Source: Polaribacter sp. (GTDB lineage: Bacteria > Bacteroidota > Bacteroidia > Flavobacteriales > Flavobacteriaceae). Taken from it: a stretch of DNA of 36,499 bases. Below, one piece after another: positions 9,245 to 19,688 of the stretch. Location of the stretch: the NCBI GenBank assembly GCA_028336245.1, contig JAOKTT010000013.1, positions 1-36,499 on the forward strand, given 5' to 3'. The notes under the pieces were generated by a model, which was not told where the DNA came from, made no database searches, and worked only from the letters and a program-made list of their open reading frames with translations. Position numbers and translations under genes: made by a program. The stretch's first letter is position 1; each line of letters starts with the position of its first letter.

Positions 9245-11650
9245 ATGATTGTTAATACAGAACTAGAACAAAAAGGAAATTTATTTCCTTCCGAAATAAT
9301 AAACTATAAAAAAGAAGTAGATACCTTACATTTTTCTACAAAAAATGGAGTTGCACTGCAGGTGACCGTTGTTAGAGACAGCGTAATCCGCTTTAGATAC
9401 AGCACTACGGGAAAGTTTGAAAATGATTTCTCTTATGGTATTACGATACACGCCAGCCGAGGATATAGTTTTTTAGATGTAACTGAAAATGCTACTCACT
9501 ATATTCTTACTACCTCTAAATTAATTTGTAAAATAGAAAAACTAAGCGCACAGGTAAGCTTATTTGATGCTATCGACTTAAAACTAATCAATGAAGATGA
9601 AATCGGTTTTCATTGGGAAGAAAGTTATGAGTTTGGTGGGGACATTGTAAAAATGAGTAAAGCCTGTCAAAAAGCAGAAAGTTTTTACGGATTAGGAGAC
9701 AAACCAGTAGACGTAAACTTAAAAGGAAAACGTTTTGAGAACTGGGCTACAGATTCCTATGCCTTTGGCAAGGATACAGATCCTATTTACAAAGCAATTC
9801 CTTTTTATACGGCAATTCAAGAGAACAAGGCCTATGGTATCTTTTTTGACAATACCTTTAAATCGCATTTTGACTTTGCACACGAAAGAAGAAATGTTAC
9901 CAGTTTTTGGGCACAAGGGGGTGAAATGAATTATTATTTCATATACGGTCCAGAAATGGAAGACGTTGTTAAAAACTATACAGATTTAACTGGAAAGCCG
10001 CATACACTTCCTCCATTGTGGGCTTTAGGATTTCATCAATGTAAATGGAGTTATTATCCAGAAAGCAATGTAAAAGAAATTACAAAAACATTTAGAGATT
10101 TAAAAATACCTTGTGATGCTATTTACTTAGACATTGACTATATGGACGGGTTCCGTTGTTTTACTTGGGATAAAAAACATTTTCCTGATCCTAAAAGAAT
10201 GGTAAAAGAACTAGAAGACGATGGTTTTAAAACAGTTGTGATTATAGATCCAGGAATTAAAATAGATTTAGAATATAGTGTTTTTAAAGAAGCATTGGAT
10301 AAAGATTATTTTTGTAAACGTGCAGATGGGCCTTATATGAAAGGTAAGGTTTGGCCAGGAGAATGTTATTTCCCTGACTATACGAAACCAGAAGTTCGGG
10401 AATGGTGGTCTGGTTTATTTAAGGAATTGATTGAAGACATTGGAGTAAAAGGTGTTTGGAATGATATGAATGAGCCGGCAGTAATGGATGTTCCTAACAA
10501 ATCATTCCCAGATGACGTACGTCACGATTATGACGGAAACCCTTGTTCGCATCGAAAAGCACATAATATCTATGGAACACAAATGGCACGGGCAACCTAT
10601 CATGGTTTAAAGAAATATGCATATCCTAAAAGACCCTTTGTAATTACAAGGTCTGCCTATTCCGGTGCACAGCGCTATACCTCTACTTGGATGGGAGACA
10701 ACGTAGCTACTTGGGAACATTTAGCTGTTGCGAATAACCAAGCACAACGTATGGCGATGTCTGGTTTTTCTTTTGCAGGAAGTGATATTGGAGGTTTTGC
10801 AGGGCAACCGCAAGGAGAGTTATTTGCAAGGTGGATTCAGTTAGGTGTTTTCCATGCTTTTTGTAGGGTTCATTCCTCAGGAGATCATGGAAATCAAGAA
10901 CCATGGGTTTTTGGTGAAGAGATTACAGACATTGTCAGAAAATTCGTAGAATTAAGATACCAACTGCTACCATATTTATACACTGCATTTTGGGAATATA
11001 TAAATGAAGGAACCCCAATTTTAAAGTCGCTAGTTTTATATGACCAAAAAGATACGGCAACACACTATCGAAGTGATGAGTTTATTTACGGAAAACAAAT
11101 TTTAATTTGTCCGATATTAGAACCAAATGCCAAAGGACGAAGAATGTATATCCCAAGAGGAGCATGGTATAATTTCTGGACAAACGAATTAGTCACCGGT
11201 GGAAAAGAACTTTGGGTGGATGCAAATATAGACAGCATGCCTATATTTATTAAAGAAGGTGCAATAATTCCCAAATATCCGGTGCAACAATATATTGGTG
11301 AAAAGAAATTTGATGAAATCACCCTAGATGTTTACTATAAAGAAGGTAAAGAGGCTTCAAAATTGTATGACGATGCCCATGATGGATATGATTATAAGAA
11401 AGGGAGATTTAGTCTCCGTACTTTTAAACTAACTGGAAAAAAAGAAGAATTAATTATACAGCAACACAAACGCGGCGACTTTAACGCAGACTACAGTAAG
11501 TTTAGAATGGTATTCCATAATTTACCGTTTCAGATTACGACCATTCAAATAGACAATGTAGCTGTTCAATTAGAGGATTTAAATACCGCTGAAACGCAAG
11601 ATATCACTATTGGAAAAGAGTTTACAGAGCTCCATTTATTTGGTAAATAA
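9245..11650 (+). CDS. GH31 family alpha-glucosidase
   Basis: Retaining glycoside hydrolase that releases glucose from alpha-glucans or alpha-glucosides. It has 801 residues: an N-terminal beta-sandwich (about 1-240), the GH31 barrel with the nucleophile motif GVWNDMNEPAV (Asp 407) and the acid/base motif WMGDNVATW (Asp 485), then C-terminal beta domains (IPRGAWYNFW... ELWVDANIDSMPIFIKEGAII). No signal peptide is visible, so it probably works in the cytoplasm on glycogen or maltodextrin, in keeping with the glg operon just upstream. The 273 bp gap suggests its own promoter. Exact substrate (maltose, isomaltose, other) cannot be read from sequence. Confidence 0.93.
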   Translation: MIVNTELEQKGNLFPSEIINYKKEVDTLHFSTKNGVALQVTVVRDSVIRFRYSTTGKFENDFSYGITIHASRGYSFLDVTENATHYILTTSKLICKIEKLSAQVSLFDAIDLKLINEDEIGFHWEESYEFGGDIVKMSKACQKAESFYGLGDKPVDVNLKGKRFENWATDSYAFGKDTDPIYKAIPFYTAIQENKAYGIFFDNTFKSHFDFAHERRNVTSFWAQGGEMNYYFIYGPEMEDVVKNYTDLTGKPHTLPPLWALGFHQCKWSYYPESNVKEITKTFRDLKIPCDAIYLDIDYMDGFRCFTWDKKHFPDPKRMVKELEDDGFKTVVIIDPGIKIDLEYSVFKEALDKDYFCKRADGPYMKGKVWPGECYFPDYTKPEVREWWSGLFKELIEDIGVKGVWNDMNEPAVMDVPNKSFPDDVRHDYDGNPCSHRKAHNIYGTQMARATYHGLKKYAYPKRPFVITRSAYSGAQRYTSTWMGDNVATWEHLAVANNQAQRMAMSGFSFAGSDIGGFAGQPQGELFARWIQLGVFHAFCRVHSSGDHGNQEPWVFGEEITDIVRKFVELRYQLLPYLYTAFWEYINEGTPILKSLVLYDQKDTATHYRSDEFIYGKQILICPILEPNAKGRRMYIPRGAWYNFWTNELVTGGKELWVDANIDSMPIFIKEGAIIPKYPVQQYIGEKKFDEITLDVYYKEGKEASKLYDDAHDGYDYKKGRFSLRTFKLTGKKEELIIQQHKRGDFNADYSKFRMVFHNLPFQITTIQIDNVAVQLEDLNTAETQDITIGKEFTELHLFGK

Positions 11651-11681
11651 AGGAACAATTGAATTTAAAATCAGAGGGTGA

Positions 11682-11722
11682 ACCCTGAATTCAGGGTCTT
11701 TAAAACTATACTGATTTCAGGG
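11682..11722. promoter_or_regulatory. palindromic repeats upstream of the predicted small-RNA promoter
   Basis: A perfect 16 bp palindrome ACCCTGAATTCAGGGT (11682-11697) is followed 26 bp on, centre to centre, by CTGATTTCAGGG (11711-11722), which repeats its right half (TTCAGGG) and keeps the CTGA..TCAG symmetry. The second copy abuts the -33 TTG at 11724. They look like paired operator sites. The first could instead form a weak hairpin terminator for the GH31 gene (loop AATT, tail CTTT). Confidence 0.5.
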
Positions 11723-11723
11723 A

Positions 11724-11754
11724 TTGTGAGATCATTATTAGCATCCTATCTTTG
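11724..11754 (+). promoter_or_regulatory. consensus promoter with no downstream CDS
   Basis: TTG 11724-11726, 20 bp spacer, TATCTTTG 11747-11754: a full match to the Bacteroidota consensus, with the same spacing and -7 element as the thrS promoter. No coding ORF follows on the plus strand; the next gene (prfA) is on the other strand. It therefore points to a non-coding transcript. Confidence 0.7.
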
Positions 11755-11760
11755 TAGTGT

Positions 11761-11880
11761 TGATCAACTTATTTCCCCTTATTATAAAGTCTAATTTTAG
11801 CTTGATAATAAAATATTTGTTTAACAAAAAAAAAAACGATTGAAGGTTTCCCCCAGAACTTAAATCGCTTTTATTTATTT
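11761..11880 (+). ncRNA. candidate small RNA of about 110-120 nt
   Basis: Bounded by the consensus promoter at 11724-11754 and an intrinsic-terminator-like hairpin at about 11837-11867 (CGATT..AATCG with inner AAGGTT/AACTT, loop with CCCCC) followed by the U-rich tail TTTTATTTATTTT. There is no ATG-led ORF between them. A GTTGATCAAC palindrome lies at its 5' end and an A11 run precedes the hairpin. Family unknown; comparison with the Flavo-1 and 6S RNA families would be the first check. Confidence 0.5.
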
Positions 11881-11991
11881 TGAAAAAGTACACCGCTAAT
11901 AAGCCTCAAAAAACTTTATTCTTTTCTATCTTTTATAAACAAAAACAACCCCATTAAAATAGGTGCATTTTCTTAATTTGATATAACAAAA

Positions 11992-12019
11992 AAAGCCTCA
12001 GTAAAATTACTGAGGCTTT
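11992..12019 (-). terminator. terminator of prfA
   Basis: AAAGCCTCAGTAA and TTACTGAGGCTTT form a 13 bp stem; on the minus strand it is followed by a run of T. It lies 24 bp after the prfA stop codon. Confidence 0.92.
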
Positions 12020-12042
12020 CTATTTTCTATAAATACACTAAA

Positions 12043-13119
12043 TTATAGGTCGTCATTCAAGCTTTTTAGTTTCTCTGTATTTTCTGCCAACATCAATTCG
12101 TCTATGATTTTTTGAATATCACCATTCATAATATTCGGCAAGTCATACAATGAAAGCCCTATCCTGTGATCCGTAACACGGCCTTGTGCATAATTATAGG
12201 TCCTAATCTTGGCACTTCTATCTCCAGAAGAAACCATAGAACCACGCTTTAAAGCATCGGCTGCATTTTTCTTAGCCAATTCCATGTCATACAAACGGGA
12301 ACGTAAAACTTTAAATGCTTTCTCCTTATTTTTATGCTGCGATTTTTGATCTTGACACTGTGCTACCAATCCTGTTGGAATATGCGTTAAACGGACGGCA
12401 GAATAGGTAGTATTTACAGACTGACCTCCTGGACCTGAAGAACAGAAAAAATCAATACGCACCTCTTTAGGGTTAATTTCTACATCAAACTCTTCTGCTT
12501 CAGGAAAAACCATACAGGTCGCGGCCGAAGTATGCACACGCCCTTGCGTTTCTGTCTGTGGTACGCGTTGCACCCGGTGCACGCCAGCTTCAAACTTTAA
12601 AATTCCATAAACATCTGCACCATTTACTTCAAACTGAATTTCCTTAAAACCTCCATTGGTACCTTCAGAGTAATCCACTGTAGAGACCTTCCAACCTTTA
12701 CTTTCACAATATTTAGTATACATTCGAAACAAGTCTCCAGCGAAAATACTGGCCTCATCTCCCCCAGTTCCTGCCCGTAGTTCTACGACTGCGTTTTTAG
12801 AGTCTTCAGGGTCAGTGGGTATCAATAAAAAACGTATTTCTTCTTCTAACTTTGGGATTCTTACATTGGCTTCGTCAATCTCCGACTTCGCCATCTCATT
12901 CATTTCCGCATCCGAACCGTCTGCCAAAATTTCTTTTGCTTCCTCAATATTGTCTACTAAAGCTTGATATTCAGCTCCCTTTTCAACAACATTTCCTAAA
13001 TCCTTATATTCTTTCATCAATTGCGCATACCGCTTCTGATCCATGATAATTTCTGGTTGAATAATCAAATCAGAAACCTCATCATAACGCTGCTTTACAA
13101 TTCTTAATTTATCTAACAT
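12043..13119 (-). CDS. prfA: peptide chain release factor 1
   Basis: Recognises UAA and UAG and triggers peptide release. It has 358 residues. The catalytic GGQ is in [12 protein letters not shown] (about residue 230). The stop-codon-reading tripeptide lies in [14 protein letters not shown], where the PxT is PQT rather than the PAT of E. coli. The acidic, helical N-terminal domain and the C-terminal helices are complete. It is flanked by its own terminator and a near-consensus -7 (TAAATTCG on the minus strand, 13142-13149), so it is probably monocistronic. Confidence 0.97.
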
Positions 13120-19605: not shown

Positions 19606-19679
19606 GGCCCTGTGGCGCAACTGGATAGCGCATCTGACTACGAATCAGAAGGTTACAGGTTCGAATCTTGTCAGGGTCA
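19606..19679 (+). tRNA. tRNA-Arg (anticodon ACG)
   Basis: A 74 nt cloverleaf: acceptor GGCCCTG with CAGGGTC (one G-U pair), D arm GCGC..GCGC, anticodon stem CTGAC/TCAG with loop TACGAAT giving anticodon ACG, T arm ACAGG-TTCGAAT-CTTGT, discriminator A. CCA is not encoded. ACG is normally modified to inosine at the first position by TadA, so it reads CGU, CGC and CGA. It has its own promoter and terminator. Confidence 0.97.
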
Positions 19680-19688
19680 CAATTTTAC

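Follow-up and report, generated by a model that had tools for sequence, protein, structure and literature searches.

A putative small RNA family of the genus Polaribacter under operators shared with its likely response regulator

Introduction

In the Gac/Rsm and Csr systems (RsmX/Y/Z, CsrB/C), more than one small RNA (sRNA) is expressed under a LuxR-type response regulator that acts at a palindrome upstream, and these sRNAs share a short loop motif. The loops of Csr/Rsm sRNAs present GGA motifs, and the CsrA/RsmA protein is encoded in the genome. The regulator LisR of Listeria monocytogenes is not of the LuxR type. All five copies of the multicopy sRNA LhrC1-5 of this bacterium are described as depending on the two-component system LisRK (PMC4132741). 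The same source describes redundant UCCC motifs in the loops or single-stranded parts of LhrC, which are said to block Shine-Dalgarno sequences, and the binding of LhrC to Hfq (PMC4132741). In Bacteroides, the FopS sRNAs are reported to have 14 members in B. thetaiotaomicron that are bound by the RRM-1 protein RbpB, with a structure deposited in Rfam (PMC11697453). Rfp18 of Flavobacterium psychrophilum is described as a conserved, structured sRNA, the deletion of which lowers the mRNA of two metalloproteases (PMC9723704). Post-transcriptional control in flavobacteria is little known.

Here, we describe a comparative analysis of a predicted sRNA, sRNA-A, in a 36,499-nucleotide stretch of Polaribacter DNA, the whole of which we call the window. 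An earlier note made from the sequence had suggested a regulated, stand-alone RNA at 11682-11880, which it could not assign to a known family. We confirm that observation, and we present evidence that supports its interpretation. Furthermore, we delimit the family and its range within the genus, and describe a likely regulator, a second sRNA under like operators, and a conserved C-rich motif.

Results

The sRNA-A locus lies between a GH31-family gene (9245..11650, + strand) and a convergent prfA gene (12043..13119, - strand), both named in the earlier sequence reading and given here as context only. According to the open reading frame list, the + strand holds no frame of at least 40 aa from 11650 to prfA; a 51-aa frame is predicted on the - strand (11738-11893). 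The promoter that the earlier note called full-consensus reads as TTG (11724-11726), 20 nt, and TATCTTTG (11747-11754) on the + strand; a generic promoter scan, which has another consensus, missed it. Judged from its -7 element, the RNA would start at 11760 and run for about 118 nt on the + strand to 11879, in agreement with the 110-120 nt ORF-free stretch, ending in a hairpin and a U-rich tail, that had been described. The perfect 16-bp palindrome reported earlier, ACCCTGAATTCAGGGT (11682..11697; no strand assigned), constitutes the distal operator, and its centre lies about 57 bp 5' of the -7 element. The partial copy reported at the -33 element was also read: the proximal operator (11706..11726, + strand, with ACTGATTTCAGGGATTG at 11710-11726) overlaps the -33 TTG, and the partial palindrome ACTGATTTCAGGG runs into this element, the end of ACTGATTTCAGGGATTG being the TTG itself (11724-11726). 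Comparison with relatives, which carry a second distal palindrome 22 bp farther upstream, suggests that 11660..11679 is a degenerate remnant of that palindrome, of which only a half-site like ATCAGAGGG is left.

Within the RNA, all on the + strand, C-rich motif 1 (UUUCCCCUUA, 11775..11778; context UUUCCCC) is unpaired in the predicted fold and is followed by a predicted hairpin of the window copy (UUAUUAUAAAG ... CUUGAUAAUAA, 11779..11811) and by a linker, AAUAUUUGUUUAACA (11812..11826), that is conserved among copies. Sequence and fold both indicate a terminator hairpin, CGAUU..AAUCG (11837..11879), with a stem at about 11837-11867, a C-rich loop, CCCCC, at 11850-11854, and a U-rich tail reaching 11879. 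The generic scan returned only part of this hairpin and placed it on the - strand, in which the A-run appears as a run of T. The window RNA folds with z = -2.46, 1 of 200 shuffles being as good; a different, overlapping stretch of the minus strand gave z = -0.28. A second terminator-like hairpin, distinct from that of the sRNA, lies just past the end of prfA (11990..12021, - strand).

At the gathering score, Rfam (release 15; 6S, Flavo-1 and all other families) matches only a tRNA in the window and no family in 10 related loci, in line with the earlier note, which could assign the RNA to no known family. Thirty-four Rfam matches at loose E-values over 11640-12045 were rejected as chance; all were below the gathering score, and most lay on the prfA terminator. 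A tRNA-Arg (ACG) is located at window positions 19606-19680.

A DNA search of 59 related genomes recovered the same stretch at the same place in genomes of the same genus, over most of its length in three loci (L002, L004, L005) and in part at the others. We built a covariance model, R1, from 10 copies in 8 genomes; the window copy, one of the ten, scores 91 bits. In the genus Polaribacter, R1 matched 69 of 146 genomes at E<=0.1 and 33 of 146 at E<=1e-5, the 146 being a sample of a larger genus and 8 of the 33 having supplied sequences to the model. Among 299 family genomes (236 genera), R1 at E<=0.001 found the window's genome, one more of the genus and one weak match, and nothing convincing outside the genus. 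The weak match, in another genus (G346, E 4.1e-5, L087), was discarded as chance, no family-like operators or C-runs being seen there. Comparison brings these units together as one family. The earlier note had let its proposal stand or fall with conservation of the promoter and hairpin in relatives; this was checked, and the unit is conserved in the genus.

Within 1.5 kb of the unit, GH31 is found at 25 of the 30 best loci, prfA at 25 of 30 and both at 21 of 30; one locus, in G080, has neither, and five genomes (G020, G080, G113, G123, G135) have the unit with no GH31 in that distance. No neighbour is kept in all 30 loci, and the most constant one, prfA, is convergent and has its own terminator-like hairpin.

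R1 gave 71 matches in 30 genomes; 16 on the opposite strand, scoring at most 41 bits, were dropped and 55 sense copies were kept. Eighteen of the 30 genomes, the window's among them, have one copy and 12 have two to five in tandem, and each array copy that we read comes with operators, a promoter and a terminator of its own. The spacing from TTG to TAnnTTTG is exactly 20 nt in 54 of the 55 copies. The exception is in G035 (L010/L056), where the promoter, the operators and most of the 5' part of sRNA-A are lost and the C-loop terminator is left; the regulator described below and its other operators persist there. Dyads of the form 7+4+7, with one mismatch allowed, occur in 45 of the 55 upstream stretches, against a shuffle mean of 6.1 and maximum of 14 (200 shuffles). 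Their centres cluster at -77/-79, -66/-68 and -55/-57 relative to the -7 element, the three clusters being those of a pair of palindromes spaced by 22 bp and of an intervening dyad. The promoter of its own in 54 of 55 copies, the operators, the duplication of the unit in tandem and its conservation support the reading of sRNA-A as a putative regulated, stand-alone RNA.

The exact distal palindrome occurs once elsewhere in the window's genome, upstream of the gene for a 221-aa protein (L021), the two sites having a 14-bp core in common. In this genome (1.38 Mb, 53.6% complete) CCCTGANNTCAGGG is found at two places, the sRNA-A locus and the promoter of this gene. The reversed control pattern of CCCTGANNTCAGGG was found 0 times there and 0 times in 7 of 8 other genomes, with 3 among the matches listed for G026. 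The 221-aa protein has Response_reg and GerE (LuxR-type) domains, and we take such a REC-LuxR response regulator to be of the NarL/FixJ type. A search at E<=1e-40 that covered 30 of the 33 sRNA-A genomes (G030, G031 and G168 were left out) gave one match in each, and in each of the 30 the regulator promoter carries palindromes of the same layout.

The operator sequence differs by species and is either of a CCCTGA type or of a TCAC type; two predicted regulator sites are CCCTGAATTCAGGG and TCACTGTTTTCAGTGA. Regulator promoter and sRNA carry the same half-site type in 29 of 29 genomes; counted by copy, they agree in 53 of 54, with one tie. G035, having lost its sRNA promoter, stands outside this comparison. 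The recognition helix varies with the operator, reading SxHT with CCCTGA and SxNT with the TCAC type in 30 of 30 genomes, so that the residue before T is H or N. On the tree this switch requires one change by the whole protein and two by the REC domain alone, and independent operator-helix events are therefore few. Within the 21 genomes of the TCAC type, the variants TCACGG, TCACTG and TCACCA are matched between the two promoters at 0.87, against 0.445 ± 0.077 when genomes are swapped (0 of 5000), and this finer variant differs between the promoters in G005 and G099. Common descent of both promoters contributes to the match. Judged from this agreement of operator and protein across species, the owner of the operators is very likely the REC-LuxR response regulator.

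At E<=1e-45 the regulator is present in 117 of the 146 genus genomes. Strong sRNA-A matches occur in 32 of these 117, leaving 85 without, and in 1 of the 29 others (G168); the regulator is thus present in 32 of the 33 sRNA-A genomes (E<=1e-5), G030 and G031 included. G168 matches both R1 (7.6e-6) and R2, the model of the second sRNA described below (2.2e-6), weakly in each case and with no regulator match at E<=1e-45, and may have lost the regulator or lack it in the assembly. In G135 (L115) an in-frame TAA interrupts the DNA-binding part of the regulator gene, possibly the sign of a pseudogene or an assembly error, and the operators and sRNA-A are kept. The regulator was also found in 11 of 119 other genera sampled, in some with similar palindromes before it. 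Among these orthologs (L172-L182), some have palindromes of their own, such as CTCACGGAAAACCGTGAG in L177 and ATCACCATTTGTGGTGAT in L179, and palindromes associated with them may precede further sRNAs in other genera.

A run of at least four C residues occurs in 51 of the 55 sRNA-A copies, against 16.9 in dinucleotide shuffles (maximum 25); 4 copies have no C4 run and 2 have no C3 run. Runs of three or more C (C3+) are present in the 5' part of 49 of the 55 copies, in the terminator part of 35 and in both parts of 31. No G4 run was found in the 55 copies of sRNA-A or the 11 of sRNA-B. The commonest context of the C-runs is U-CCCC-UAA, with UAA following 47 of 104 C3+ runs.

The 5' stem was examined by an arm-swap test, which took in copies of class I only, one per genome (22 of 37); the 55 copies also include 9 of class II, 5 of class III and 4 odd ones. 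Own arms pair at -7.17 kcal/mol, against -5.31 ± 0.44 kcal/mol for permuted arms (0 of 2000), and this better pairing within genomes favours an RNA structure under selection. In 6 of the 22 genomes at least 10 of the 21 swapped 3' arms pair as well as the genome's own, the figure for the window's copy being 10 of 21; across the genus the homologous 5' stem has support, and in the window copy it is weak. With RNAalifold, 36 MAFFT-aligned 5' domains yielded no common structure, since their arms do not align.

A second short unit under like operators, sRNA-B, lies upstream of a gene that we named by eye as an ABC-F-type ATPase gene, and was read in 11 genomes (L152, L156, L157, L160, L162, L164, L167, L169, L170, L171, L025). 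In its predicted structure the stem CATTTAATTT/AAATTAAATG closes a loop with two C-rich stretches and is followed by a terminator; the stem hardly varies, and covariation is therefore little informative. A C4+ run occurs in 11 of 11 copies, against 6.6 in shuffles (maximum 10), the terminator stem having been removed beforehand. By eye there is no sequence likeness between sRNA-A and sRNA-B; both have C-runs, and their one common feature is the loop motif UCCCC(U)AA. The sRNA-B model, R2, matched 28 of the 146 genus genomes at E<=1e-6, its 11 source genomes being counted among the matches, and all 28 have the regulator. At E<=0.01 it matched 89 genomes, many of them weakly, and we count the 28. 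In the window's genome, which is 53.6% complete, sRNA-B was not found.

Operator searches in 9 and 8 genomes led us to read 20 places, after 11 earlier ones. The controls of the 8-genome search gave 0 in 6 of 8 genomes and 1 each in G005 and G128, and some single, diverged palindromes from this search may be chance. Like operators precede genes for large secreted proteins. Pfam identified a T9SS sorting domain in the proteins of L025, L162 and L154, with a subtilase domain as well in L162, and 2 of the 8 proteins tested had no family. At L163:1609-6745, three operator units stand in a row, two of them before genes that are lipoprotein-like by eye and have near-identical starts; the first of these encodes a Tox-MPTase3 (metallopeptidase toxin 3) domain, and the arrangement suggests that regulated secreted proteins have expanded in tandem there. 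On contig C2 of the window's own genome (L022:1780-2320), a degenerate operator copy precedes the gene for a T9SS-sorted DUF285 protein. We read the leaders of 16 of 19 regulon genes, three having no recognisable proximal site. A G3 run is present in 1 of the 16, and a C3+ run in 8 of the 16, a count taken without a shuffle control in which two of the eight leaders are near-identical and two have guessed gene starts.

Discussion

With slightly better than even confidence, we favour the view that sRNA-A is a regulator-activated, stand-alone, trans-acting sRNA that uses its C-rich loops to pair with G-rich parts of its target mRNAs. The REC-LuxR response regulator, which would also control its own gene, would bind the upstream palindromes and activate transcription from the -33/-7 promoter. 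Activation is suggested by the position of the operators upstream of -33 and by the same layout at the other targets of the regulator. In the resulting RNA of about 118 nt, the 5' part would display UCCCC(U)AA; the terminator part has a C3+ run, as well or instead, in 35 of 55 copies. Tandem duplication, with 2-5 copies in 12 of 30 genomes, might increase the dose of the RNA, as might the unrelated sRNA-B, which has the same motif under like operators. Action in trans is suggested because no neighbour is kept in all loci and because prfA is convergent, with its own terminator-like hairpin. We infer that the C-rich motif is the working part of sRNA-A, and by analogy with the UCCC motifs of LhrC its loops would most likely act by pairing with G-rich stretches of target mRNAs.

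We place base pairing somewhat ahead of protein binding. Pairing is the common case among sRNAs, and motif plus flanks span 8 nt; against it, only 1 of the 16 regulon leaders has a G3 run. In addition, Bacteroidia ribosomes are said in PMC9976891 not to recognise Shine-Dalgarno sequences, and the usual target of C-rich sRNAs would therefore be missing.

It is possible, though we hold it only tentatively, that sRNA-A is a decoy as in Gac/Rsm, whose UCCCC(U)AA loops sequester an RNA-binding protein, so that the regulator frees the mRNA targets of this protein with no base pairing. In favour of this model, sRNA-A and sRNA-B are unrelated in sequence, stand under one kind of operator and have nothing but a short loop motif in common, which is the logic of RsmX/Y/Z; the C3+ runs in 8 of 16 regulon leaders, counted without a shuffle control, point the same way. 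However, none of the 15 Polaribacter-genus genomes examined yielded CsrA, Hfq or RRM_1, in searches that were positive in 3 of 14 control genomes for CsrA and in 2 of 14, a Bacteroides among them, for RRM_1, and the sequestered protein would therefore have to be another one. Moreover, each RNA has only one or two motifs, fewer than typical Csr/Rsm RNAs. The fullest form of this idea is more speculative still: an independent Gac/Rsm-like circuit in Flavobacteriaceae, with an autoregulated regulator and two unrelated, partly multicopy sRNAs whose UCCCC(U)AA loops would capture an undescribed C-rich-RNA-binding protein and so tune secreted proteases and surface proteins.

That the operators bind a repressor, or that the regulator itself represses, the RNA being made when the repressor is inactive, appears unlikely. 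The proximal partial palindrome touches the -33 element, where repressors also sit, but the distal dyads are centred 55-79 bp upstream of the -7 element, and the same operator layout precedes the regulator's own gene and the genes for secreted proteins. Such an upstream layout is as for activators of the NarL/FixJ kind. It is highly improbable that there is no separate RNA and that the hairpin simply ends the GH31 transcript, with the palindrome belonging to the 3' end of GH31: the hairpin does lie downstream of GH31 on the same strand, with no + strand terminator-like site listed between 11650 and the promoter, but a conserved promoter and operators intervene, whole units stand in tandem, each with its own promoter, and five genomes have the unit with no GH31 within 1.5 kb.

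Regulator-driven multicopy sRNAs with redundant C-rich motifs, such as LhrC, are known as a kind. Literature searches returned no paper describing the sRNA-A family or its circuit, and a search for five operator sequences gave no match. As judged from sequence comparison, what appears new is the sRNA family, a LuxR-type regulator with drifting operators and a second sRNA with the same motif; as far as these searches show, the phylum is also new for such a circuit. The regulator-activated, trans-acting sRNA that we favour would be part of an undescribed regulator-RNA circuit, to which sRNA-A points. With its likely regulator, its defined operators and a motif that is an obvious candidate, this conserved sRNA family can be tested in cultivated marine bacteria. 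One may ask there what protein or mRNA recognises the C-rich loops, and what part these RNAs play beside the regulated secreted proteins.

Among described systems, LhrC resembles sRNA-A in having several related copies per genome, sRNA-A having 2-5 copies in 12 of 30 genomes and one in the window's, and in its UCCC-type motifs, with C4+ runs in 51 of 55 sRNA-A copies and C3+ runs in both parts of 31 of 55. LhrC is under a two-component system; for sRNA-A, the match of operator and regulator sequences suggests that a response regulator may control it. In sequence, sRNA-A has no match in Rfam at the gathering score, insofar as that library includes LhrC. LhrC binds Hfq, which was not found in the 15 Polaribacter-genus genomes, and its UCCC motifs are said to block Shine-Dalgarno sequences; according to PMC9976891, such sequences are not recognised by ribosomes of Bacteroidia. 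Like sRNA-A, FopS, as described in PMC11697453, is a Bacteroidota sRNA family with several copies and a terminator hairpin, but its partner is the RRM-1 protein RbpB, whereas RRM_1 was found in 0 of 15 genomes here and sRNA-A has no Rfam match; a common response regulator does not figure in the description of FopS used here. With Rfp18, compared by its published description only, sRNA-A shares the character of a structured flavobacterial sRNA, and secreted peptidases belong to the predicted regulon of the likely sRNA-A regulator; beyond the genus, the R1 search of 299 family genomes gave no convincing match. Unlike the Csr/Rsm sRNAs, sRNA-A and sRNA-B repeat a loop motif that is C-rich rather than GGA, and CsrA/RsmA was not found in 15 of 15 Polaribacter-genus genomes. 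What they have in common with Gac/Rsm is a likely LuxR-type regulator with an upstream palindrome, more than one sRNA, and a short motif presented in loops.
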